Assembly (NCBI GenBank): GCA_019454105.1 | Contig: CP075364.1 | Location: 375,362-439,361 of the forward strand | Length of the DNA: 64,000 nt | Direction of reading: 5' to 3' | Source: Fimbriimonadaceae bacterium | GTDB lineage: Bacteria > Armatimonadota > Fimbriimonadia > Fimbriimonadales > Fimbriimonadaceae | Shown here: positions 1,232-17,260 of the stretch, piece by piece | Layout: every line of letters starts with the position of its first letter | Position numbering within the stretch: the first letter of the stretch is position 1 | The notes under the pieces: generated by a model | What the model saw: the letters and a program-made list of their open reading frames with translations, nothing else | Databases searched by the model: none | Told to the model about the DNA's origin: nothing | Program-made: the position numbers and the translations under genes

Positions 1232-1789
1232 TCAGTCGGGAAGTCCTGCTTTGGCGGCTTGCTCGACCGCGAAGATGACCTGAGGATCGCGCATCGCCTT
1301 GCGGACTGGATGACTCTGCGCCGTCGGCGGTATCAGATCTTCGATCAGCTCGGTGATCCATTTGGACAAGAGCCCGCCGCTCGTGGGATCGACCTCCCGG
1401 CCCAGCTTCGCCAACTCTTGGGCCCGTTCTCGGCGGCCCCGAAGATCGTGCGCCAGAGCCAAACCGTAGAGGCCGTTGGCCACGTTCGATGGCGCATTTC
1501 CCTGCAGGGCGGCCTGGCTCCCTCGGACAAAGTTCTCCCAAGCCAGCTCCAGATTCCCGGCGCGCAAGTGTGCCATCCCTCTCAGATTTGTCGACCTGAC
1601 GTCGAGTTCTTGGCTCGAGACTTCCGAATTGTGCAAGTCGGCCCGGTCGAGCATACGGAGGGCCTCTTCCGTGTCGCCAGTCGCAATGAAGAGGTTCGAG
1701 AAGTCCAGAAGCAGGTTCGTCAGTAGCCGGAGGTTTCCGGCCTCCTCAGCCCTCTCCATGCCCGCCAAGAAGAAGGGAATCGCGCGCGT
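1232..1789 (-). pseudogene. C-terminal TPR part of the AfsR-like regulator, after an in-frame stop
   Basis: This stretch continues the reading frame of the upstream AfsR-like gene directly after its TAA codon (1790-1792). The sequence reads through as GDNHRRAGN-stop-TRAIPFFLAGMERAEEAGN, which is an uninterrupted TPR repeat if the stop is replaced by a tyrosine. It then gives about 185 residues ending in AKAGLPD before TGA at 1232. An internal ATG at 1768 could start a 178-residue protein, but no ribosome-binding site precedes it. It is best read as the severed C-terminus of one ~1,009-residue protein. A base error in the assembly would produce the same picture. Confidence 0.7.
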
Positions 1790-4264
1790 TTAGTTGCCTG
1801 CGCGGCGATGGTTGTCGCCCAAGTTGATCCGAATCACGATCTTGAGCAACGGCACATAGGGGCTCTCCGAGTCCTCCATCGTCTCGATGATCTCGAGAGC
1901 CCGCTTGAGGTTCGTCTCCGTCAGGTCGAACCGGCCAGCTCCCATGGTAGCGATGGAATAGTTGTTCAAGGCTCGGGCGATTTGGAGCTGGTCGCCGGTC
2001 TCCTCGGCGAGTTCGAGCCCCTTCCCATAGTGCCGAAGGGCCGTTTCATAGTCATTAAGGTCGACCGCCATGGAGCCTGCGGTGACATACGCCCCAGCGA
2101 CCGCGTTTCGAGACGAAGAAGGGAGCGGTCGGTCGAGGAGTTGCGTCGTCCTGTCGAGCCATTCCCGGTAGTGCCCGTTCAGTGTGAAGAACTGCATGAG
2201 GTGACTCACCATCATCAAGGCTTCGGGCGGGCACTCCGGCTCCTTCATGGCATGCTCGGCAAGGGCCCGCAAGTTGTCGTGCTCGGCCTCGATGTGCCGG
2301 ATCGCCTGCTTCACATTCGGACCCTCGAACTCGTGCCGGAGTTTCTCGGCCAGCGCAGAATAGGCCCGTCGGTGACGGCGGACGACGTCGTCCCGATCGC
2401 CCGATTCGACCAAAGCCTGCTCGGCGAAAGCCCGTATCGGCTCCAACATTCGGAACCGGAGGCCACCGCCGCCTTCCTCGGAGACTACAAGCGAGGCAGC
2501 GACCAGTTCGTCCATGTTCTGGTAGATGTCGGGCTCGTCGAAAAGGGTTTCAAGTGTCTCAAGGGTGCTGCCGCCGCGCAAGATCCCCATGGCGCGGAAC
2601 AGCCGTTTGGCCCTGTCGCTCAAGAGGTCGTAGCTCCACTCGACGACGGCAGAAAGGTTGCGGTGGCGCTCGGGGGCGTCGCGCCATCGGTTCGTCAGCT
2701 GGAGAACCCGGTCACCAATCCGGCCCAGAAGTTGGGCGGGCGACATCGAGGAAATCTGGGCCGCTGCGAGCTCGATCGCAAGAGGCATGCCGTCTAACCT
2801 TCGGCAGATTTCTGCCACAGCCTCGGCGTTCGACGGGTTCAACGTGAAATCCGGGCGCTGGGCGCTGGCCCGGTCGACGAACAGGCGGACGCTCGAGACG
2901 CTCGCCATGTCCTTGAGTCGAACGTCTCGGGAAGGAACCTCCAGGGCCGACAACGGAAGGCTTCTTTCGACGTTCAGTCCCAGCCTCCTTCGGGATGTCG
3001 CCAAGATCCGAAGGCTCGGAATCTCTTGCGCCAACCTGAGGGCCAGGGAAGGCTCTTTGTCGACCAGTTGCTCGTAGCCGTCGAGAACCAAGAGCGCGGG
3101 TCGATTGGTCAAGTGCTCGGCAAGTCGGGCATAGTTTTCTTCCACGCTCCCTCGGGTGAGCCCGAATGCCTCGCAAACCGTCGCCAAGGCCACGGAGGGA
3201 TCCGTGGTCAGTTCCACGTTTACGACCCGGATCCAACCGTAATAGGCTGAGAGGAGCCTGTGGGCAAGCGACAGGGCATAGATCGACTTACCGATGCCGC
3301 CCGGGCCAGTGACCGACCAGAGTCGCGGCCTGCAGTCGTCGCGTGGATCCAGTTCCATGGCGAGCCAATTGAGGTCGCTCTCGCGCCCGATCACCCCCCG
3401 CATCAAGGACGGCAGCGGGTTCTTCGTCCCTTCGGTGGACTCGGTCGACCATTCGGGTGGGGGCGGTGCGAAGTCGTCAGTCGGTTCTGAACGGAAGACC
3501 GCCTGCGACTTCGGCAAAGTCTCGAGAGCCCGCACCGCCTCTGCCGAGGGGCGCTCCCCCCACTGCTCTTCCAAGATCGTCTCGAGAAGTTCGAATTGTC
3601 TGAGCGCGTCCGACACCATGCCGCAAGCTCCCAGCGCTTCGATGACCGCGACATGAAGATCTTCGCGGTTGGGCGAAACGACCAGAGCGTTCTTTCCTGA
3701 GAGTGCGGCCTCCTGGGGCTTGCCGAGCTCGATCAATCCTTTGACATGGGCGACGACAGCCATGGCGTGTTCTTCCTCGAAGGACAGCTGTTTGGGAACC
3801 ACCCACCCCCAGAACTCGCCCGAGAGGAGAGGGCCTTCGACAAGCGCGAGGGCATGAGACAGCAGATCGACCCTTTCGCGGAGGGAAGACGCCCGTTCCG
3901 CGTCTTTGACAATCCACCGAAACTGCTCGAGATCGGTTGTGACGGAGCCGTTCGCCAGGCTGATGTCCGTTCTGTCCGCGATCAGGACGTCCGCGTTCTC
4001 ACCATCGGCGTGTAGTTGCTTCCGGAGGGAAGCGAGCACAGTCCTCAGGTTCTGACGGGCGGCCTCAGTGTCGAAATCGGGCCAGATCGCATCCGCCAAC
4101 TCATCGCGGCCGACCCTTCGGCCCAAGTTGACGGCCAGGTACGCCAGCACGCCGGCGGCCGTTCGGGATCGGAAACGAGTGACGTTTCCGAACTGCTCCG
4201 ACTCAGCGGCCAATCTGCCGAACAACCTGACGCGCCAGAGCGCGTTGGCTTGGGCGCTTAACAT
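1790..4264 (-). CDS. AfsR/SARP-family transcriptional regulator, truncated by TAA
   Basis: The 824-residue product has an N-terminal winged helix (about residues 10-85, RVRLFGRL...AIWPDFDTEAARQNLRTVLA). A bacterial transcriptional activator (BTAD) all-alpha domain follows to ~245, then an NB-ARC-type ATPase with P-loop VTGPGGIGKS near 320 and LLVLDGYEQL as Walker B. Helical TPR repeats make up the C-terminus. In this family ATP binding couples signal sensing to DNA binding. The frame stops at TAA 1790-1792 in the middle of a TPR, and matching TPR sequence continues in the same frame to 1232. ATG 4264 is the start; no clear Shine-Dalgarno is seen, but TATGAT lies 10 bases upstream. Target genes are unknown. 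Confidence 0.85.
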   Translation of the reverse strand: MLSAQANALWRVRLFGRLAAESEQFGNVTRFRSRTAAGVLAYLAVNLGRRVGRDELADAIWPDFDTEAARQNLRTVLASLRKQLHADGENADVLIADRTDISLANGSVTTDLEQFRWIVKDAERASSLRERVDLLSHALALVEGPLLSGEFWGWVVPKQLSFEEEHAMAVVAHVKGLIELGKPQEAALSGKNALVVSPNREDLHVAVIEALGACGMVSDALRQFELLETILEEQWGERPSAEAVRALETLPKSQAVFRSEPTDDFAPPPPEWSTESTEGTKNPLPSLMRGVIGRESDLNWLAMELDPRDDCRPRLWSVTGPGGIGKSIYALSLAHRLLSAYYGWIRVVNVELTTDPSVALATVCEAFGLTRGSVEENYARLAEHLTNRPALLVLDGYEQLVDKEPSLALRLAQEIPSLRILATSRRRLGLNVERSLPLSALEVPSRDVRLKDMASVSSVRLFVDRASAQRPDFTLNPSNAEAVAEICRRLDGMPLAIELAAAQISSMSPAQLLGRIGDRVLQLTNRWRDAPERHRNLSAVVEWSYDLLSDRAKRLFRAMGILRGGSTLETLETLFDEPDIYQNMDELVAASLVVSEEGGGGLRFRMLEPIRAFAEQALVESGDRDDVVRRHRRAYSALAEKLRHEFEGPNVKQAIRHIEAEHDNLRALAEHAMKEPECPPEALMMVSHLMQFFTLNGHYREWLDRTTQLLDRPLPSSSRNAVAGAYVTAGSMAVDLNDYETALRHYGKGLELAEETGDQLQIARALNNYSIATMGAGRFDLTETNLKRALEIIETMEDSESPYVPLLKIVIRINLGDNHRRAGN

Positions 4265-5325: not shown

Positions 5326-7026
5326 CTACCGGCCGCCAAGACCGCTCAGGGCGACGCCCTCGATAAAGTAGCGTTGGGCGAACGCAAAGAGAGCGATCAC
5401 TGGAACCATTGACATCGTGACAAAAGCCATGAGGAGACCAGGCTCTCCATATCGCTCGCCATTGAACATTTGCACGGCATAGGAAATCGGCATCAGTTCG
5501 GGCGTGTTGACGTAGATGAGCGGGCCCATGAAGTTGTTCCAAGCCCCCATGAAGGTCCAGATGGCAATGACGGCCAAAGCCGGTTTCACCTGGGGCATGA
5601 GGATGCTCCAGAAGGTCTTCAAGTAGCTGCATCCGTCGATCTTGGCCGCGTCCTCTAGCTCATAGGGCACCTGCTTGAAGAACTGCCTCAGCATGAACAC
5701 GTTGAACGCTCCGGCGAAGAAGCTTGTGACCCATAGTGGGTTGAGGGTGTTCACCCATCCCAGGTTCTTGAACAGCAAGAACTGGGGCAAGATGGTGACA
5801 GCAGCGGGCAGCATCATGGTGCTCAGCATGACGTTGAAAAGAATCTCTCTCCCCGGGAAACGCAGACGCGCAAACGCGTAAGCGACCAAGGAACAGCTCA
5901 GGACTGTGCCAATGACGTTCATGACGACAAGGAACAAAGTGTTCCTGAGGTAGAGCAGCCCGAAGAGAGTTTCTGGGGGCAGAAACTCAAGGGCGTCAGT
6001 AAAGTTGCGCCATCGCAGGCTCACCGGCCTGACCGGCTCTGCCTCGCTCCTGGTGACGACCACTTGCCGACCGGCCAGGTCTCTTGGTTCGGTCACCTCG
6101 ACTTTGCGCCTCCCGTCGGGCGTCTCGTCGACCACCATGGCCGTCACTTTGCGGCCGTCCAGGGTCAGTGAAACAACGTTGGCCTCGCGGGGAATCTCCT
6201 TCACGTCCTCGGGTCGCGCCTCGAATGTGTAGCTGCCCAACCCAGCCGGTCTAACGATGCTGAGCTCAAGGACACCGTCTTCTCTGGCCCTCATGAGATT
6301 GGCCTCGACCCTCATGCCTTGATAGCGGGCCTCGTAGTAGGGCTTGTCCGGGTTCCTGTAAGGGACGGTCGCTTGGACTCTTGGAACCCATATGATGCCC
6401 TCCGGCGAGGCCATGTCGCGATCCTCCTTGAAGCTTGTCACGAGCTGCCACAAGAACGGGATGGCGAACAGGGCGGCCCCAACGGCCAGGGCGAGTTGGG
6501 TCGCGACGGTACGGCTGACGCCTCGGGCTTGGACGCTGCGGCTCGCATACGCCATCGCCGACACACTCGCCAAACCGAGAGCCCCGAGCCCGATAGCCCC
6601 GCCCGGAGAGAGCGGGATCTGTCCGGTCAAGAGCCGGGGCGGGCCACCTTCGGCCGATCCCCACCAGAACAGCAACGCAGCGACACCGAGGCAAACCGCG
6701 CCAGGCTTGAACGACCGCCTGTCGGAAAGAAAGCCCCTGACGAAGTGGGTCAAGCCTGCAAGGCCGACCCATAAGCCGATCCATGAAGGAAACGGGAGTA
6801 CGGGCCAGACGATCGGGACATTCAATCCTGGGCTTGGAGCCAGCGTCCCGCCCAAGACCAGGCTGGCGCCGCCCAGAGCCAGCGTCGTCCATGCTTTTCG
6901 GCTCGATCCCGCTCGGGCAGGGCCTGCTGGCGACCATGCGAGCCGAAGGCCCAGATAGGCGGCGCGCAAGAGCAAGAACCCCCCGACCCAGAAGGCGATC
7001 GTCGCGGCTAGGATTACGGTCACCAT
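5326..7026 (-). CDS. ABC sugar transporter permease, MalG type, enlarged
   Basis: The last ~240 residues are a normal MalG-like inner-membrane permease. They carry the ATPase-coupling EAA-type loop as YELEDAAKIDGCSYLKTFW followed by further membrane segments. The protein is 566 residues, about twice the usual 280. It has an extra N-terminal block of about five or six hydrophobic segments (residues 1-200). A soluble beta-rich insert of ~130 residues (about 205-335, with many charged residues) sits between the expected first and second core helices. Its ATG directly follows the TAG of the fused binding protein-permease gene, so the two are co-translated. The substrate is probably maltodextrin, from the neighbouring GH13, GH31 and LacI genes. 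Confidence 0.85.
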   Translation of the reverse strand: MVTVILAATIAFWVGGFLLLRAAYLGLRLAWSPAGPARAGSSRKAWTTLALGGASLVLGGTLAPSPGLNVPIVWPVLPFPSWIGLWVGLAGLTHFVRGFLSDRRSFKPGAVCLGVAALLFWWGSAEGGPPRLLTGQIPLSPGGAIGLGALGLASVSAMAYASRSVQARGVSRTVATQLALAVGAALFAIPFLWQLVTSFKEDRDMASPEGIIWVPRVQATVPYRNPDKPYYEARYQGMRVEANLMRAREDGVLELSIVRPAGLGSYTFEARPEDVKEIPREANVVSLTLDGRKVTAMVVDETPDGRRKVEVTEPRDLAGRQVVVTRSEAEPVRPVSLRWRNFTDALEFLPPETLFGLLYLRNTLFLVVMNVIGTVLSCSLVAYAFARLRFPGREILFNVMLSTMMLPAAVTILPQFLLFKNLGWVNTLNPLWVTSFFAGAFNVFMLRQFFKQVPYELEDAAKIDGCSYLKTFWSILMPQVKPALAVIAIWTFMGAWNNFMGPLIYVNTPELMPISYAVQMFNGERYGEPGLLMAFVTMSMVPVIALFAFAQRYFIEGVALSGLGGR

Positions 7027-9483
7027 CTACTTGTCCGCCTCATAGTACACGTAGCGCTGGCCGAACTTGAACTGAACTAGCGTCAGAGCCAGGATCACGA
7101 AGAAAACGAGCCAGGCCAAGGCGCTCCCGAACCCGACCTTGAAATAGTTGAACGAGTTGACGAACAGGTGGACCACCGGCACGAGGAGCGAGTCAGAAGG
7201 TCCGGCCGAACCGCCACTCCCTCGGACGACCCAGACCCGGTCGAACTCTTGGATCGCCCCAATGAACCCGGTCACGGTGTTGAAAAAGATGACCGGGCTC
7301 AGCATCGGAAGCGTGACGTTGAAAAACTGCTTGACCGGCGAAGCCCCGTCGATGTTCGCCGCCTCGTAGAGCGTCTGCGGCACTCCTTTGAGTCCGGCAA
7401 GCCACAGGATCATGCCGCCCCCAGCCCCCCACAGGCCCATCAGAATGAGGGCGGGTTTGGCCCAGTCAGCGACTTGCAACCACCCCGGTGGCGACACTCC
7501 CAGCCAGGGCGTCAATGTTCCTTGCCAGGCGGCATTGATCAGCCCTTTTGACGGGTCTGGGGTCAGGATCCAGCTCCAAAGCACCGTCGCCCCGACCGCG
7601 GGCAGGATCGAGGGCATATAGAACACCGTTCGATAGAATCGGATACCCCGAGCTGCCGTGTTCAGAAGCATGGCGACCATGAGGCTCGTCACGATCCCCA
7701 AGGGCACCCCAATGCCTGCCAAGTAGAACACGTTCCAAAAGGCTTTGATCAGGTTTTGCCTTTCAGAGGTAAACAGATCAGAATAGTTCTCAAGCCCGAT
7801 CCATTTCGGCTCTGTCAGGACGTTGTACTGAGTAAAGCTAAAGACGAAAGACGCCACCATCGGTCCGGCCGTGAAGACCAAAAAGCCGACGATCCAAGGG
7901 GAGACAAGAAGGTAGGCCCAGATCGTCTCTTGACGGGCTAGCCGGCCCATCTTGTGCCTGGCGACCCAAACCCCGAAGCAGACCGCCAAGAGCCCGAATA
8001 GCCCCAGCGTCAGGCCGAACGGTACTCGGAAGTCGAGCTTAGGTAGCTCAAAGTAGCGGTGGTGGGCGTCGAGTTCCCGTTGCACGACCGCTTGTCCGTC
8101 ACGCAAGGCTTGGGCTGGGCTCTTCTCGCCCCGGCAGGCGGCCTCCAGGGCCTTGACGTGCTCGTCCCAAAGGGCTTGTCCGACGACGGTCGGCGGCCTG
8201 ATCCGGCCGACCTCGGCCAACTGCACGTGCATGGCGAGAGCGGCGGCGAAGTTGGGGATCGTCGGCTTGAACTCTTCGTAGAGCGCTTGGTTCGCCTCGC
8301 GGTGGGCCTGGATGCGCGGGATATAGTCGCGCCCGCGGACGCGTTCCCAATCGCGCTGGGCCCGGTTCTCAATGAGGCGGCCCTCCGCGCTGGTCGCGAA
8401 CTTGATGAACCGCCAGGCGCCCTCAACGTTCCGTGCGCCCTGGGGAATGGCGTAGCTAAAGCCGCCGATCCATGTGACGAACTGGTCTTTCTCGCCTGCG
8501 AACCGTCCCCGGCGGGCATAACGGTCGTCGGGCACCGGCGGGGGGGCGGCGCCGAAGTCGAGGTCGGGGCCATAGCGGACGAGCGACGAGAGAATCCAGT
8601 CCCCGTCGATCTTCATGGCGATCTTGCCGATGATGAAGGGGTCGCTCTCGTTGCCCTGGAAGCCGCTTTGGAACTTCTGGGCCTCGTCATAGCCGCCCAG
8701 GATCTTGTAGCCGTCGACCATGAAGCGCAGCGCCTCCTCGCTCTCCGGCGAGTGGAGGGTGCAGGTGCGCCCGTCGGGGCTCATGAAGCTCGCGTTGTTC
8801 TGGAAGGCGAACAAGTAGAGCCAACTGTTGCCGAAGTTCGGGATGAACCCGGCCGTCTTGAGGTTGCCGCGCTCGTCGCGCTCGGTGAGGACCTTCGAGT
8901 AGGCGAGGGTCTCGCTCCAGGTGCGCGGGGGCCGTTCTGGGTCGAGCCCGGCGGCGCGGAGCTCGGCCGCCTTGCGGCGAAAGATCGTGCGGTTCCAGTA
9001 GAGGATGCGGTCGTCGGCACTGGTCGGGATTCCATATACCTTGCCTTCGTACCGGGCCTCGCCCCAGGCGCTGGGGTAGTACTGCTCTTCTTTCGGGGAG
9101 AGCGGGTCGTCCTTGTCCCGGGCGATGAGGTCGTCGAGCGGTCGGAACGCGCCCCGGGCGGCCCAATCGCTGAGGCTGAAGCGGTCTTGGTTGATGACGT
9201 CGGGCGGGGCCCCGCCGACGATGGCGGTCATGAGCTTCTGGGGGTTCATCTCCCCTGCGCCCATCCTGAGGGCCCTGATCTTGAGGTCTGGGTTGCGACG
9301 CTCGAACTCGCGGACGAGCGCTTCGGTCCCCTTGGCGTCGGGGCCCGCCGCAAGTCCCCAGACGGTGATCTCGGTGCGGGCCCAAACTGACAGTGAGCCC
9401 AACAACACAATTGGAATCAGGATTGCTCGACAGGGCCTTGCCACCTGACCAGCCAGGCAAAGAGCTAACACCTTACCTCCCAA
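7027..9483 (-). CDS. fused solute-binding protein and MalF-type permease
   Basis: The 818-residue protein joins two normally separate subunits. Residues ~35-460 form an extracellular family 1 solute-binding domain (TEITVWGLAAG, then a long MalE-like body with IDGDWILSSL). After a membrane segment near 485 comes a six-helix MalF-like permease (about 520-818) with coupling loop YEAANIDGASPVKQFF. A hydrophobic N-terminus (ILIPIVLLGSLSVWA) acts as signal or anchor. The start shown is TTG 9483; GTG 9471 directly after GGGAGGTAAG is an alternative. No ATPase is encoded nearby, so a shared MsmX/MalK-like protein elsewhere is needed. The fusion should tether one binding protein per transporter. Confidence 0.9.
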   Translation of the reverse strand: MGGKVLALCLAGQVARPCRAILIPIVLLGSLSVWARTEITVWGLAAGPDAKGTEALVREFERRNPDLKIRALRMGAGEMNPQKLMTAIVGGAPPDVINQDRFSLSDWAARGAFRPLDDLIARDKDDPLSPKEEQYYPSAWGEARYEGKVYGIPTSADDRILYWNRTIFRRKAAELRAAGLDPERPPRTWSETLAYSKVLTERDERGNLKTAGFIPNFGNSWLYLFAFQNNASFMSPDGRTCTLHSPESEEALRFMVDGYKILGGYDEAQKFQSGFQGNESDPFIIGKIAMKIDGDWILSSLVRYGPDLDFGAAPPPVPDDRYARRGRFAGEKDQFVTWIGGFSYAIPQGARNVEGAWRFIKFATSAEGRLIENRAQRDWERVRGRDYIPRIQAHREANQALYEEFKPTIPNFAAALAMHVQLAEVGRIRPPTVVGQALWDEHVKALEAACRGEKSPAQALRDGQAVVQRELDAHHRYFELPKLDFRVPFGLTLGLFGLLAVCFGVWVARHKMGRLARQETIWAYLLVSPWIVGFLVFTAGPMVASFVFSFTQYNVLTEPKWIGLENYSDLFTSERQNLIKAFWNVFYLAGIGVPLGIVTSLMVAMLLNTAARGIRFYRTVFYMPSILPAVGATVLWSWILTPDPSKGLINAAWQGTLTPWLGVSPPGWLQVADWAKPALILMGLWGAGGGMILWLAGLKGVPQTLYEAANIDGASPVKQFFNVTLPMLSPVIFFNTVTGFIGAIQEFDRVWVVRGSGGSAGPSDSLLVPVVHLFVNSFNYFKVGFGSALAWLVFFVILALTLVQFKFGQRYVYYEADK

Positions 9484-9565
9484 TGATTAACAGGGGAGAA
9501 ACGGCACCAGTCAGTACCGAAGGCCGATTCCGACCGCTGCTGCCGCCGCGCATTAAGGACAGCTT

Positions 9566-10261
9566 CTACTGAACTGACTCCACAGATATGATGGTCATCT
9601 CCTCAGCCGGGCCACCCTCTGAACCGCTAGTGGAAAGGCCGACGGTGTTACCTAGTGCCGTTCGCCATCCTTGAGCATAGTCGAAAGGCCTAATGTGTGT
9701 GACGTTTCCAATCCATGTTATGGGGTTGATCTTCGTGAAGGTAACGTTGTACGTGGTTCGTCTCTGTTGCTCCAGGAATCTTCGGTCATTCAGGCCACCG
9801 ATGCCAGGAAACCATTCCGTTCGGAAGCCGTTCGCAGCGAAGTCGCAGTGGAAGGTGACCGGGCCTAATGAGCCACCTGCCAACGCGTAGTAAGCCAGGA
9901 GGCGCGCATCTTCCAAAATTGTCACCTGCTTCGTGAAGGTCTGCCCGGGAAGGATCCCGGTTGGTTGAAACGCGATGGAAAACCAGAAATTGGTGCTTCC
10001 AAAGCGACGGTGATTCGGGGCCGCTACCGAGCTGTTTCCTTCCATTCCGGCGAGCATCGAAAAGATGCCTTGATTAAGCGCACCGATGGATGAACCCATG
10101 CTGATCGTCGAACGAACGTTCCCAAACGTCACAGTTGATGGAGCACTGCCTTGCCCAAATGTGTCTGTCGCAAGGCCGTCGACAACCGTCCAATTCCCCT
10201 GTTGGGAAAAGGTCAAGATGAATGTAAACGTGAGCAGAGTGGCGAAGAGTTGTCTCGTCAC
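9566..10261 (-). CDS. secreted protein of unknown function
   Basis: The 231-residue product begins with a clear signal peptide (MTRQLFATLLTFTFILTFSQQ). The mature part is rich in T, G and F with alternating hydrophobic residues, suggesting a beta-sandwich. No known motif, cysteine pattern or PEP-CTERM tail was recognised. The start is GTG 10261, four bases after a good promoter. It lies between the sugar importer and the pilin-like gene on the same strand but has its own promoter, so it may be regulated apart from them. Base composition is less GC-rich than the flanks, which could mean later acquisition. Confidence 0.7.
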   Translation of the reverse strand: MTRQLFATLLTFTFILTFSQQGNWTVVDGLATDTFGQGSAPSTVTFGNVRSTISMGSSIGALNQGIFSMLAGMEGNSSVAAPNHRRFGSTNFWFSIAFQPTGILPGQTFTKQVTILEDARLLAYYALAGGSLGPVTFHCDFAANGFRTEWFPGIGGLNDRRFLEQQRRTTYNVTFTKINPITWIGNVTHIRPFDYAQGWRTALGNTVGLSTSGSEGGPAEEMTIISVESVQ

Positions 10262-10265
10262 TTAG

Positions 10266-10295
10266 ACTCTACCACGAGAGGATTTCTGGTGTCAA
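10266..10295 (-). promoter_or_regulatory. sigma-70-like promoter of the secreted protein gene
   Basis: The minus strand reads TTGACA (10290-10295), an 18-base spacer, then TAGAGT (10266-10271), with GTG four bases further on. The -35 box matches consensus exactly. The short distance implies a leaderless or almost leaderless mRNA. Confidence 0.6.
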
Positions 10296-10474
10296 GCACA
10301 ACTTGCGAGAAGTGAAGAAAATCTCTGCATCTTTGGATGTCTACTCGGTGCAAACAATATTCTAAGCCCTAAATGCGCTTGCCTTCACACCGCTTCGTGA
10401 TTCGCTAATGACGCTCAGGCTCGGCTGCGAAGGCATCGGACCTTCAACAGACGAGTAGCGTTTAGGCTCGCGTG

Positions 10475-10687
10475 CTATTGGCCGCGAGCCTGTTCCTCGG
10501 ACCCGGCCCCGCCCCCAAGATTCTGGTCAAACCTTTCAGTTTGAACCTTGGTCTGCTTTTCGGCGAGATCTTGCTCTGCGGGAGACATCTGGCCAGTGCC
10601 GCCGGACAGAAACCATACGCCTGCAATAGCAGCGACGGCGACGACGGCGATGATTGCAATGACGAACGGCGGCACTTCCTTTTTCAT
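10475..10687 (-). CDS. small single-pass membrane protein
   Basis: The 70-residue protein has a basic tip (MKKE), one membrane helix (FVIAIIAVVAVAAIAGVWFL) and a hydrophilic tail rich in Q and E (MSPAEQDLAEKQTKVQTERF) ending in a G/Q stretch. ATG 10687 begins one base after the TGA of the pilin-like gene, and the GGAGAG inside that gene's last codons serves as ribosome-binding site, so the two are translationally coupled. A similar arrangement occurs at 31890-32051. It could be an accessory factor for the pilin-like protein, but no function is known. Confidence 0.7.
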   Translation of the reverse strand: MKKEVPPFVIAIIAVVAVAAIAGVWFLSGGTGQMSPAEQDLAEKQTKVQTERFDQNLGGGAGSEEQARGQ

Positions 10688-10688
10688 G

Positions 10689-11567
10689 TCACTCTCCGGG
10701 GAGCTTGCAGGTGCGTTCGTCGGTGATCGGCGCCATCGAGTCGAAGCACGAAATACCCTTGTCCCAGAACGGGTCAAAGCTTCCGACCCATGCTCCGGCC
10801 TTTTGCTCGTAGCCTTCGAAGAACGTGCCTTGAGTGACGCCGTCGCTGGCAGTGCCGTTGAGCTTCTTGTACTTCACGTGACCGTCGACGAATCCCCACA
10901 CGGCCCCTTCGTTGTACTTGTTGGAGATGTTTCCGAAGGGCGCACGCCGGTCATTGCCGTTCGACCACTCCAGCTTGCGTGTGTTCTCGATTCCACCTGG
11001 TAGCGGCCAGTCGTCCGAGCCCCATTGGTCTGTTCCCGCGATGAGAGCTTGGCGCTGTTCGCCGATGGCGACCGTGTCGGCTGGGAGCGGGATGCCACCG
11101 ACGCTTCGAGGTGGATCCCATCCGGATGCGTACTGACCACGCCACCCATTACGAATCTGAACGCCAGTGAAGACGTTTCTCGCGACGTCGTAGCTCCGTC
11201 GTACGCGGCCGTGGGGAGTCTGGTAGACAGGTCGGTTGTCGGCTCCCGAGTACATGATGTCGTAGTTCTTCAGGTAGCCGTAGATTAGTTTATCCCACGA
11301 CATGCCATCGGTCGGGTCGCCACCACGTCCACGAGGGCCGTAGCCCCCACGCAGACGCGGACTGAAGAAGTCATCGTTGTCGCCCGTGTACATCATGTGA
11401 CCGATGAGAGTCTGCTTGACATTGCTGACGGCTTGAGTCTTCTTTGCGGCTTCCTTCGCTTGGGCGAAGACGGGGAAGAGGATGGCGGCGAGGATCGCGA
11501 TGATCGCGATGACGACGAGGAGCTCGATCAGCGTGAAGCCGGAGCGGTTGTGGCGATGACTAAGCAT
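10689..11567 (-). CDS. pilin-like secreted protein with N-terminal methylation signal (copy 1)
   Basis: A type IV pilin/pseudopilin leader is present: short basic leader, then [21 protein letters not shown], with cleavage expected before the F and the E at +5. This is followed by [13 protein letters not shown]. The rest is a large globular domain with [13 protein letters not shown] near the end, typical of the DUF1559-like family abundant in Armatimonadota and Planctomycetes. At 292 residues it is larger than a structural pilin. ATG 11567 is preferred over GTG 11576 because AAAGGTGA sits just upstream of it. It follows the GH13 gene with its ribosome site inside that gene's end, so it may belong to the sugar operon. 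Confidence 0.9.
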
Positions 11568-11572
11568 CTTGA

Positions 11573-13729
11573 TCACCTTTGATGGATTGCCTCGACAACG
11601 AGGCGGGATGGATTTCGGTCAATGGTCGGTCGGGCCGAGGCCCGGGTGGACGAGACGGCCCCGGCGCTGGGCCGGGGAGCAAGGACGACAAGGGAAAGAG
11701 GCGGCAGTTCGACCGTGAGACGGGACTGGTCGGCCGGGACGGAAGCGCCCGTGAGCCCGCAGGCCCAAACTCGGGCCGCACGGACGTCGCGGCAGCGGGC
11801 CAGTTCTGGCGTCAAGGCGAAGGACACTGGCTGGGCCTTCTCAGACCGGTTCACGGCCACGATCCGCACGTCTTCCGGCATCACCCGGGCGAAGACGAGC
11901 GTCCGGGCTCGGTCGTCGGCTGCCAAGAGAGCCGGGTCGCCGGATTGAAGGGCCGAGCTCCCGTTACGAAGTTCAGCCAGGGCCTGATAAAGCCGAAGGA
12001 ACGTGTTGTCGGCGGTCGCACGTCGCCAGTCCATCGGACGCCGGTTGTCCGGGTCGGGCCCGCCTTCCATCCCGATCTCGTCGCCGTAATAGACGCACGG
12101 CGCCCCGACCCAGGTGAACATCAGCATCGCGGCGAGCTTGGCGAGCCGGACGTCCCCACCGCACTCGGTCAGGATCCTCGGCACGTCGTGGCTGCTCACG
12201 AGGTTGAGGAGGTTGCGACTCACTGCCGGCCCGTAGGCGTGGTGCACACGCATGAGGTCTTCCCAAAAGGCGCGCGGCTTCATCGTCCCACGGGCCACGA
12301 ACCCCAACACCGAGTTGCGGAACTGGTAGTTCATGGTCGAGTCCCACTGGTCGCCCTTGAGCCACGGCGAGGCGTCCTCCCACATTTCGCCAACGATCCA
12401 CCGGTCAGGGTCGGCTTTCACCCAGGGCCGGAACTCGCGCCAGAAGTCCATCGGCACTTCGGGCGAAACGTCGAGCCGCCACCCGTGCACGGCCGCCGTT
12501 CCCTGCCAATGCTCCACGACCTCCCGCACCATGCGCCGGACGGCTGGGTTCGCATGGTTCAGCTTCGGCATCGCGCCAAATCCGGCCCATGACTCGTAGG
12601 TCGGCCTGCCCCCAAGGCTCACCGGCCAAGATCGGACGGTGTACCAATCACGGGTCGCGGCTTTCTGCTGGTCGCGCAGGAGCGCAGCGAAGGCGGGGAA
12701 GTCGGTGGCAGTGTGGTTGAAGACACCGTCCAAAACGGTCTTGATGCCAGCCTTCTCAAGCTCCCGGGTCAAGGCGGCGAACTCGTCGTTCGTCCCCAGC
12801 CGGGGATCGATCCGAAGGTAATCGGTCGTGTCGTACCGGTGGTTGCTCGGGCTCGCGAAAACCGGGTTCCAATAGACGGCCCCGACGCCCAACTCGCGCA
12901 AGTGGCCTTGGTGCTGCCGGACGCCGGCAAGATCCCCGCCGAACCAGTTACGGAAGGTCGGCCTTCCGGATTCCCAGTTCTCGACGCTATCCGGGTCGTT
13001 CGACGGGTTGCCGTTACCGAAGCGGTCAGGGAAGATCTGATAGAAGACCGTCTGCTCGACCCATGGCGGCGGTGCCGGAGACACCAGTCTCTCGGGATCG
13101 ACCTGGTACCAACCTCCATCGTGCGGCATCTTCATCGTCTTGGGCCCGTCCTTGATCTCGAACCGATACACGAACGGCGATCGTTTGTCCCACTTGGCGT
13201 CTACGGTGTGGTATCCGAAGATCTCGTCGCTGTGGGACGCAACCATCGGCAGCGGGGGCGATCCAGGGGTCACGAAACTGACCGCATCAACGTCGTGGGC
13301 GCGCGTGCGCAAGGTCAAGTGCAAGCGTCCTCGGTCGTAGCTGAGGGCCGGGGCCTCTCTGGGGTGCCAAACCGGACTCTCGGTGATCCGTCCGTCTCCC
13401 AACTTGGCTGGCGAATCATAGCCAATGGGAAGCACCACCAACATTGAGTTCGTGTTCCCCGTCCCGTCGTCGATCGACTCGGCCGATGGGTCGAGGCGCC
13501 ATGTATTCCCGTCGATAACGAACTTGTACTGATGACGGCCGACCGGAACGTCGATCGCGGCCCTCCACTGACTTTCTTGCCGCCGCATCGGGTTGGCTTC
13601 CTTGTTCCACTGGTTGAAAGTGCCGGCGACGTTGACGCTCTTGGCTGTCGGCGATGAGAACTCGAAAGTGACCTGGCGAGTCAAGACGCCACCGTCCACA
13701 ATCATCAGGGCCAAAACGACGGAGTTCAC
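11573..13729 (-). CDS. GH13 alpha-amylase-family enzyme (neopullulanase/cyclomaltodextrinase-like)
   Basis: The 718-residue enzyme begins with a CBM48/AMPK-like module ([17 protein letters not shown]), then a second beta module, then the GH13 barrel. Family signatures are all visible: DGVFNHT (region I), [11 protein letters not shown] with the nucleophile Asp, IVGEMWEDA with the acid/base Glu, and [10 protein letters not shown] with the third Asp. An all-beta C-domain ends the protein. GTG 13729 is chosen because it overlaps the LacI stop (GTGA) and follows GGAGG at ideal spacing. It should hydrolyse alpha-1,4 links in maltodextrins or cyclodextrins. A weak N-terminal hydrophobic stretch leaves export uncertain. 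Confidence 0.9.
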
Positions 13730-14745
13730 AGCAAGCCTCCGGTCCTGATGCTTGATCCCCTCACCTTGAGCACGCTCGGAACAATCACTCGCTGAGGTTC
13801 GCCCTGCTCCTCTCGTGCGATCACGGCCAAGAGCGTGCTGAGGGCTGTCTGCACGAGGAGAGGAATGTCGAGGCTGACCGAGGACAGTCCGACATCCACC
13901 ATCTCGCAAACGACACTGTCGTTAAAGCCGACCAAGCCCAGGTCTTGCGGGATGCGCAACCCGGCCCGCCGGGCGGCCGCCACCACGCCCATCGCCATGT
14001 AGTCGTCGAGAACCACCAGGGCGTCCGGTGGTTCGGATCCCCGCAGGATCTCGCCCGCCGCCTCTCGCGCCGCTTCCAGCCCGAATTCGGATCGCCAGAC
14101 CCTCGGGGTGAGGCCATGACCGATGACGACCTTTAGGTAGCCCTCAAAACGGTCCTCGCTCACGGTGAGCCCCGAGTGCCCGCCCAGGTAACCGATCTTG
14201 CGGTAGCCCGAATCGAAGAGGTGTTGTGTCGCTTTGACCCCCGCGAGGACGTTGTCATTGTCGACGGACCAAACCCGGTTCGACATCGGGTTGCCGATGA
14301 GGACGAACGGGAACTGGTCTCGCTGGAGACGGACAAGCCGTTCGTCGTCGGCCTCGCTCTCAATGAGGATCAAACCGTCCACGGAGCGTGTCCGAAGCAG
14401 CGCGTCATAGACCGACCACTGGCTCTCGTCCTCTCGGATCGACTGAAGGGTCAGCCGGTAAGCGGTCTCCGAGAGCCCGTCGAGTAGTTCCGAGATCAGG
14501 CTCGTATAGAAGGGGTCCCCGTCGAGTCCAGGATGGGGCCGCTTGATCGCGAGACCGATGAGGCCGGTGCTTTTCGAACGAAGCGACCGCGCTCGGGCGT
14601 CCGGTCGATAATTGTGCTGCTCGATCGCGTCGAGGACCTTTTCGCGGATCTCAGGCTCGACCCGCTCGTCACCGGCGAGGACACGGCTCACGGTGGCCTG
14701 TGAGACCTGGGCGTATCGGGCTATGTCCTGTTGGGTGACTCTCAT
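13726..14745 (-). CDS. LacI-family transcriptional repressor
   Basis: The 339-residue protein has the LacI helix-turn-helix at the extreme N-terminus (TQQDIARYAQVSQATVSRVL), hinge residues to ~60 (RSLRSKSTGLIGLAI) and a periplasmic-binding-like effector domain (LVGFNDSVVCEMVDVGLSSV near the end). It is the first gene of a minus-strand operon with the GH13 gene, which overlaps it by four bases. It likely represses the alpha-glucan locus and responds to a maltose-type sugar; that is inferred from neighbours. A candidate operator lies in its own promoter (14786-14797), suggesting autoregulation. Confidence 0.93.
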   Translation of the reverse strand: MRVTQQDIARYAQVSQATVSRVLAGDERVEPEIREKVLDAIEQHNYRPDARARSLRSKSTGLIGLAIKRPHPGLDGDPFYTSLISELLDGLSETAYRLTLQSIREDESQWSVYDALLRTRSVDGLILIESEADDERLVRLQRDQFPFVLIGNPMSNRVWSVDNDNVLAGVKATQHLFDSGYRKIGYLGGHSGLTVSEDRFEGYLKVVIGHGLTPRVWRSEFGLEAAREAAGEILRGSEPPDALVVLDDYMAMGVVAAARRAGLRIPQDLGLVGFNDSVVCEMVDVGLSSVSLDIPLLVQTALSTLLAVIAREEQGEPQRVIVPSVLKVRGSSIRTGGLL

Positions 14746-14785
14746 CGTCGTGACCGCGCCGTCGCGGCGGCTGGTTCCAGCCTAA

Positions 14786-14797
14786 GAATTCGTATTC
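14786..14797. promoter_or_regulatory. candidate LacI-type operator with adjacent promoter
   Basis: GAATTCGTATTC is a CG-centred 12-base near-palindrome with one mismatched pair, the shape of LacI-family operators. On the minus strand it follows directly after TACTGT, which pairs with TTGCGA 18 bases further upstream as a possible promoter. A repressor bound here would cover the transcription start of the lacI-GH13 operon. Confidence 0.4.
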
Positions 14798-14935
14798 ACA
14801 GTACAACAGGCCAGCCCCGGATCGCAACAATTTTGAGAATGATTCTTGATAACCAGCGCTTATACTGGGTGAAAAGCACGGTCGGTGAGATTGTGCCCGA
14901 AAGGGCAATCCGCTGATCGCTGTGAGGCTTAAGAC

Positions 14936-17260
14936 CTACTCGATAAGCCAGAGCTTGATCGGTGAGCCGGTGAAAGTGTCGGTGACGGCGCTGGCCTTGC
15001 AGGGTTCACCATCGAGGGTCACAGACTTCGGTTCCCGGGTGAGCAGGAAACTGGGACGGATCCGACCCACGGCCTCCGAATCTTGTCGCGTGAAGATCTC
15101 GACCGTTTCTCCCCAAATGAGCCTCACTCCCATGCGGCTTCTGGCCCCTGACCGGTAGTCAAACGTGAGGCCGTCGTCTGCCACAAATTCGGTCTCGCTG
15201 ACCGAGTTGTCAGGACCAGGGTTGACGAGGAAGACGGGTTGGAGGAGATCCACTTCCGAATTTCCACGGACTTCGCGTTGGACGGGGACGATCGCTCCCG
15301 GCTTCATAAGCAATGGCGATTCGTTCAGGTTCACGGCCCGCTTTTCTGAAGCGCCGAGCCTCCTGCCGGTCGAGAGGTCGAACCAGCCCTGCCCACGAGG
15401 CAACGCCACCTCACGCTCCTTCTTCTTCACCGTCAGCAACGGTGCGTGCATCAGTTCGGGTCCAACCATGAACTGATCGTTGCACTCATACCACTCTGGA
15501 TCTTCAAAGTCATACAGAACCGGCCTCACGATCGGGTCGCCCGACTCCTCCTGTGTGATGAAGAGCTGATAAAGATAGGGCAGAAAGCGATAGCGCAGCC
15601 GAATATAGTGGGCGACAGTCTCCCGGAACTTGCGGGGATACTGCCATGGCTCCTCCCGCCTGCTTTCGAGGGTGGAGTGGTTACGGAAAAACGGGAACAG
15701 GAAGCACGCTTGAATCCAACGGGTCATCAATTCGCCGTGGGCGTCGCCGCCGAATCCAGCGACGTCAGGGCCGTTGAACGGGATTCCGCTGATCGACATG
15801 CCTAACGTCGTTGGGACGGAGATCCTCAAGTGGAACTCGTTCGACACGTTGTCCCCGGTCCACACCGCACTGAAGCGGCTCGTGCCCGTGAATCCTGAGC
15901 GGGTGAGCAGGAACGGCCTTTCGTTCGGACGAGCGCGCAAAAACCCTTCGACCGTCGCCATCTGCATCCCGAGGGCGTATTGGTTCCGGTGCAGGTTGTG
16001 GGCCGCCTGTCCGTCTTCGAAAAGCATGTCCTGAGGGTCGACCGGCCCCGTCGAGGGGTCGTTCATATCGACCCAAGCCGCCCCGAAGCCGCAGTCTCGG
16101 AACTCGGCCGCATACCCCGCCCACCAGTCTCGAACTTGGTGTTGGATGAAGTCCGGGAAGACGGTGTCGCCCGGCCAGACAATCCCGACGAATTCGCCTC
16201 CTTCGGGATTCTTGCAAAAGACCTTGTGCTTGCGACCGTCGTCATAGACACGATAGCCTGGCTCTTGCTTCACCCCCGGATCGATGATGGGCACGATGCG
16301 CCTACCGTTCTTGGCCAGAGCATCGGCCGTGGATTGGACTCCATTTGGGAACTGGTCGACGTTGGTCTGAAAGATTCGAAACCCATCCATGTAGTCAAGG
16401 TCGAGCCAAAGACCGCTGCACGGGATTTCGTGCTTGGCGAACTTCTGGTCCAAATCGGTGAGGTCCTTGTGGCCGCCGTATCCCCATCGAGACTGGTGGA
16501 AGCCGAGGCTCCAAAGTGGAGGGAGGGGCGTCCGGCCGACCAAGCTTTGAAGCTTTCTTGTGAGTTCGGCCAGGGACTCGGCGGTCAAGATCCATAGATG
16601 GGGTTCTCCAGACTCGCTCCCGAGAAGCAACGTATGATGGGTCGCTTGCCAAGCGGCGAACGCCCGGTCTCCTTCTCGTCCCGGTGTCGACATGAACGTC
16701 ACGGCCGGATTGTCGATGAGAAACCCGATCCAACCCTGGGGCACCTTGACCGCGACGTAAGGGGTCGTGAAATACGGCGGGTCGACCGGATGCTCCATCC
16801 ATTGCGACCAGTGGAAATCGCTCCAAACATCGGTGTTGTAGAACTTGGTCCGGACCCCTGAGAGCTCGAGCCGCCCGAACCACTTTTCGCCCATGCCGTA
16901 GTAGCGGGCGTCGGCGGGCATCTCGAACTGGAACAGGGAGGCCTCGCCACAAACTCCGAACGAGCCCGTTCTTGGGGCTGTGACCCACGGGTTACCGTCC
17001 GGACCGATGACCCTGGTCTCAAGGTGGGCCCCGATTTCAAGACCGTGACTCCTGCATACGGGCGGCGGGGTCAAGGGCGCCAAGGGGCGGTTGGGCCTCC
17101 ATGTCTCGAGCCGAGTTGCCGACAGGTGATGGATCCCTCCCTCGTGCGATTCAGCTGTGAAGTGAAACCGCTTTCCCCCCGCCTCAAACATCCCAGATCT
17201 GGGATCAAAGTTCTGAGCGTAACTGAAGTTCGCTGGGTGAGGAAACTTCGTGTAGTACAT
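14936..17260 (-). CDS. GH31 alpha-glucosidase
   Basis: The 774-residue protein shows the GH31 plan: N-terminal beta domain with MGEKWFG, a (beta/alpha)8 barrel with LWLDLDYMDGF, the catalytic nucleophile in AAWVDMNDPS and the acid/base region FSAVWTGDN, then C-terminal beta domains. There is no signal peptide, so it should act in the cytoplasm on imported maltodextrins, releasing glucose from the non-reducing end. It lies upstream of lacI on the same strand with 190 bases between, and probably has a separate transcript. ATG 17260 has no clear Shine-Dalgarno. An alpha-xylosidase role cannot be excluded. Confidence 0.93.
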   Translation of the reverse strand: MYYTKFPHPANFSYAQNFDPRSGMFEAGGKRFHFTAESHEGGIHHLSATRLETWRPNRPLAPLTPPPVCRSHGLEIGAHLETRVIGPDGNPWVTAPRTGSFGVCGEASLFQFEMPADARYYGMGEKWFGRLELSGVRTKFYNTDVWSDFHWSQWMEHPVDPPYFTTPYVAVKVPQGWIGFLIDNPAVTFMSTPGREGDRAFAAWQATHHTLLLGSESGEPHLWILTAESLAELTRKLQSLVGRTPLPPLWSLGFHQSRWGYGGHKDLTDLDQKFAKHEIPCSGLWLDLDYMDGFRIFQTNVDQFPNGVQSTADALAKNGRRIVPIIDPGVKQEPGYRVYDDGRKHKVFCKNPEGGEFVGIVWPGDTVFPDFIQHQVRDWWAGYAAEFRDCGFGAAWVDMNDPSTGPVDPQDMLFEDGQAAHNLHRNQYALGMQMATVEGFLRARPNERPFLLTRSGFTGTSRFSAVWTGDNVSNEFHLRISVPTTLGMSISGIPFNGPDVAGFGGDAHGELMTRWIQACFLFPFFRNHSTLESRREEPWQYPRKFRETVAHYIRLRYRFLPYLYQLFITQEESGDPIVRPVLYDFEDPEWYECNDQFMVGPELMHAPLLTVKKKEREVALPRGQGWFDLSTGRRLGASEKRAVNLNESPLLMKPGAIVPVQREVRGNSEVDLLQPVFLVNPGPDNSVSETEFVADDGLTFDYRSGARSRMGVRLIWGETVEIFTRQDSEAVGRIRPSFLLTREPKSVTLDGEPCKASAVTDTFTGSPIKLWLIE

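Follow-up and report, generated by a model that had tools for sequence, protein, structure and literature searches.

An AfsR-like regulator gene in the genome of an uncultured Fimbriimonadaceae bacterium (Armatimonadota) is interrupted by a single in-frame TAA codon. The break probably arose by a nonsense mutation of recent date, in a paralogue, specific to this lineage, of the family's large SARP (AfsR-like) STAND regulators. The gene lies on the minus strand of the window (the whole stretch of 64,000 nucleotides analysed here). Its open reading frame begins with an ATG at 4264 and runs for 824 codons (4264..1793), the last residues being ...GDNHRRAGN; past the TAA (1792..1790) the same frame goes on with TRAIPFFLAGMERAEEAGN... 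for 185 codons, down to a TGA at 1234..1232. The coordinates, residue counts and peptide of the preliminary description proved exact on re-reading. Its main claim, that an AfsR/SARP-type regulator is broken within a TPR by one in-frame stop, agrees with the ORF and with a Pfam match bridging the stop, and the interrupted frame is confirmed as a real feature. Its parts are listed in Table 1.

Table 1. Parts of the interrupted AfsR-like frame. Residue numbers are those of the read-through protein.
Feature	Position in window	Strand	Residues	Content or source
Truncated ORF, 824 aa	1790..4264	-	about 1-250; about 290-600	OmpR-type winged helix + BTAD (SARP); then STAND/NB-ARC-like NOD
Truncated ORF, C-terminal part	1790..4264	-		arm, TPR1, TPR2, helix A of TPR3
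In-frame TAA	1790..1792	-	codon 825	turn between TPR3 helices A (804-821) and B (825-842)
Detached tail	1232..1789	-		185 codons + TGA: rest of TPR3, TPR4-6, capping helix, poorly predicted C-terminus
TPR1 helices			719-735/739-756	predicted structure
TPR2 helices			759-775/779-794	predicted structure
TPR3 helices			804-821/825-842	predicted structure
TPR4 helices			845-862/865-882	predicted structure
TPR5 helices			885-901/905-921	predicted structure
TPR6 helices			925-941/945-958	predicted structure
Cap			960-977	predicted structure

As in large SARPs, a BTAD (PF03704, 9e-15, residues 110-245) follows an OmpR-type DNA-binding domain, the match to the latter being just below the cut-off (PF00486, 1e-5, residues 35-93). 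The NOD has a Walker A motif, GPGGIGKS, at about 319-326, in which G320, G323, G325 and K326 are invariant in the alignment; AAA_22, AAA_16 and NB-ARC matches fall below the Pfam cut-offs, and there is a fold match to 6MFV. The C-terminal TPR sensor is not whole in a single chain, as the stop at codon 825 falls inside TPR3 and detaches TPR4-6 and the cap. The domain order, OmpR-type DNA-binding domain, BTAD, NOD and TPR, is that of AfsR of Streptomyces coelicolor, a large SARP which, unlike the 824-aa ORF of this Armatimonadota host, is not truncated. The NCBIfam AfsR model (NF053617) matches residues 39-914 of the read-through protein with 48 bits, against a cut-off of 1430, and because this score is so far below the cut-off the regulator is regarded as a distant relative, not as AfsR itself.

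The structure of the read-through protein was predicted with the TAA read as Tyr. Given a mean pLDDT of 80 and a pTM of 0.44, the folds are usable but the arrangement of the domains is not. In this model the stop stands where helix B of TPR3 would begin, at its first residue. Foldseek gave PH0952 (6MFV, E 4e-14) as the best match of the whole model, and AfsR (8HVR/8K60) and EmbR as fold matches of the SARP part. The likeness to PH0952 and MalT, STAND proteins with a TPR sensor, lies in the NOD and arm, followed by six TPRs and a cap in the read-through model; in contrast to the N-terminal SARP part found here, the N-terminal effector of PH0952 is ArsR-like, and in MalT the DNA-binding domain is C-terminal (PMC6468293).

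Judged by its sequence, the tail past the stop is coding, as it has Pfam TPR matches, shows the gene's own G+C content by codon position and aligns with relatives. On its own it matches TPR_12 (6e-7) and TPR_14 (9e-7), one TPR_12 match spans the stop (residues 812-875 of the read-through protein), and its best relative was found by phmmer at 2e-6 (small database). G+C at the three codon positions is.66/.45/.77 before the stop and.67/.45/.75 after it. The probability of 185 open codons arising by chance at the local G+C is about 0.004, and the TPR content is stronger evidence for coding than the length of the open run. No second lesion was seen over the 185 codons. In a codon-usage scan of the window that took in all stops flanked on either side by 60 or more open codons, the TAA at 1792..1790 ranked first by two-sided coding score.

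The search for relatives covered 85 genomes at the level of the family and 113 at that of the order. The nearest ones, in named records of Fimbriimonadaceae, Chthonomonas and Armatimonadetes MAGs, are 29-37% identical, and the alignment scan gave only relatives at 29-41%; a protein pattern scan of genome contigs gave no close relative, and a 27-base probe across the stop had no match in viral contigs. Where relatives were read over their whole length, the proteins have about 850-1140 residues. Among 41 aligned AfsR-like proteins, none has a stop at the aligned site, and the comparison of this codon in relatives, which the preliminary description had proposed, yielded no protein ending at the same stop. 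Full-length relatives, from the same bacterial order, that span the site run 146-313 residues past it, most of them 183-204. Two proteins are exceptions in being short: L009, cut by a contig end, and L024, a 775-aa protein with a different C-terminal make-up. The gene thus has, as a pseudogene would, an in-frame stop absent from intact relatives and a coding remnant beyond it; nonsense mutation and sequencing error, both named in the preliminary description, were the right options to keep. Few other AfsR-like matches carry an in-frame stop (three TGA cases, all elsewhere in the gene). One AfsR-like gene in a relative with a fragmented assembly (L112, G012:C275:600-3300) has its single in-frame TGA in the SARP domain, near residue 80. 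A SARP/BTAD-like protein 34% identical to the regulator is encoded on a contig (L053) that was binned with a Methanoregulaceae archaeon; it is either bin contamination or an archaeal member.

Several further AfsR-like genes of the host genome are free of internal stops, so the loss of one copy should be tolerable. Bacteria commonly show single nonsense mutations in multi-copy regulators, and the present case, with one stop, an otherwise intact frame and paralogues, does not differ in any special way from such pseudogenes. Comparison of synteny with the nearest relatives showed no shared neighbours, apart from a distant ABC permease next to one paralogue and a short permease match adjoining another relative. 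This is what a dispensable copy confined to one lineage should show. A paralogue of the regulator in another Fimbriimonadaceae genome (L108, G015, 7591-8529) adjoins an ABC permease with 29% identity to the protein encoded at 5326-7026 in the window.

The interrupted gene lies just downstream of an alpha-glucan use cluster (5326-17260, minus strand), which carries its own LacI-type regulator, along with a fused ABC transporter, a permease, an alpha-amylase family protein with a CBM48-like domain and a GH31 glycosidase. The transporter (7027-9483, minus strand) is of the sugar type and joins an extracellular SBP_bac_1 domain to BPD_transp_1 in one chain of 818 aa; it is followed by the permease (5326-7026), a 566-aa protein whose N-terminal part is long.

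The real gene would be intact if the stop came from a sequencing or consensus error, or from a minority-strain base in a metagenome-type assembly. We consider this distinctly less probable than a true mutation, while giving it appreciable weight. It would fit a single base flanked on either side by perfectly normal coding sequence and, by our estimate, about 1/20 of random coding substitutions makes a stop, so that a consensus error rate near 1e-4, a possible value, would give one false stop per quarter megabase. The assembly, however, is a single contig of 2,741,041 bases, 99% complete, and interrupted frames were looked for in the 64-kb window and in ten 20-kb stretches elsewhere (200 kb), where no coding frame other than the AfsR-like one was found interrupted. 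In the window, a seven-state coding scan gave four stops within continuous coding frames; those at 7027, 27378 and 46640 were rejected as interruptions, being the ends of same-frame neighbour genes with a full-length ORF beginning 0-8 codons on. Seven further stops flagged in the ten samples were likewise gene boundaries, for instance an alpha/beta-hydrolase-like end before a cytosine methyltransferase-like start, or a TatA-like start. Both sets of verdicts are our reading of the sequences and their starts. Nearly all same-strand frame changes in window and samples coincide with a stop codon and have a start codon nearby, and on this general pattern no clear frameshift was seen in the window and the 200 kb. 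That coding sequence is otherwise clean over 264 kb argues for a good assembly.

The coding character kept in the tail would also suit a programmed or leaky readthrough giving a short and a long form, both structurally imaginable, an option that the preliminary description had raised and that found no support here. The stop is a UAA followed by A, and no relative has a stop at this site. TAA is a normal terminator in this genome (16 of the 118 long ORFs sampled end with it) and a UUA anticodon is absent among the 46 tRNA genes found and read, so a suppressor tRNA was rejected and recoding is left without support; RNA structure downstream of the stop is not unusual (z -0.6). Literature searches yielded nothing of use on readthrough or on BTAD in Fimbriimonas. 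We regard readthrough as highly improbable. Gene fission, in which the tail would be re-initiated at TTG 1768 or ATG 1759 (7 and 10 codons past the stop) and the halves would reassemble, has start codons at hand, but the break cuts through a repeat midway, neither codon has a clear Shine-Dalgarno sequence before it on reading the sequence, and the gene is split in no relative; we hold it to be very unlikely.

If a nonsense mutation is the cause, the ancestral gene would have coded for about 1010 residues, and a one-base change would have turned codon 825 into TAA. The preliminary description had proposed a tyrosine codon. The aligned column is variable (F7 L6 Y5 H5 E4 S4 Q2 and others), and CAA and GAA are also one step from TAA. 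A rough estimate, combining column frequencies, codon usage in the window and a mutation spectrum of our choice (flat or G:C>A:T-biased), gave Tyr a probability of about 0.65 or 0.51 according to the spectrum, its main rivals being Glu (GAA) and Gln (CAA). Tyr therefore keeps the lead at about 50-65%, but weakly.

Translation should end after TPR3 helix A. The expected product, up to residue 824, would extend from the promoter-binding SARP part (DNA-binding domain and BTAD) through the ATPase (NOD) and the arm, keeping about 2.5 TPRs and exposing an unpaired helix; TPR4-6 and the cap would be lost. The earlier statement that the C-terminal sensor is removed was too strong, since TPR1, TPR2 and helix A of TPR3 are left. 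The nucleotide-binding domain of PH0952 is clamped by the arm and the fourth TPR (PMC6468293), a repeat that would be missing from the 824-aa product, and mutations at the contact between sensor and NBD are partly activating in MalT (PMC6468293). S. coelicolor AfsR without its TPR domain, though, still activates less than the isolated SARP domain (PMC10936776), which means that sensor loss alone did not fully free the activator there, and this closest experiment does not support the suggestion that losing the sensor could make the ATPase constitutive. Since, in addition, a free half-repeat is likely to be poorly folded, lost or impaired function would be the safer expectation.

Truncation as a selected change, in which loss of TPR3 helix B to TPR6 removes the clamp between sensor and NBD while the arm is kept, and a short, partly de-repressed regulator serves the lineage, strikes us as very unlikely. 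With a recent nonsense mutation the product would most likely be unstable or signal-blind, and the gene would then be a young pseudogene or a null or hypomorphic allele. Annotation should mark the 824-aa ORF as an interrupted gene and not take it for a natural "mid-size" SARP. If the truncated form proved active and had become fixed in its population, it would offer a natural test of the role of the distal TPRs in STAND activators.
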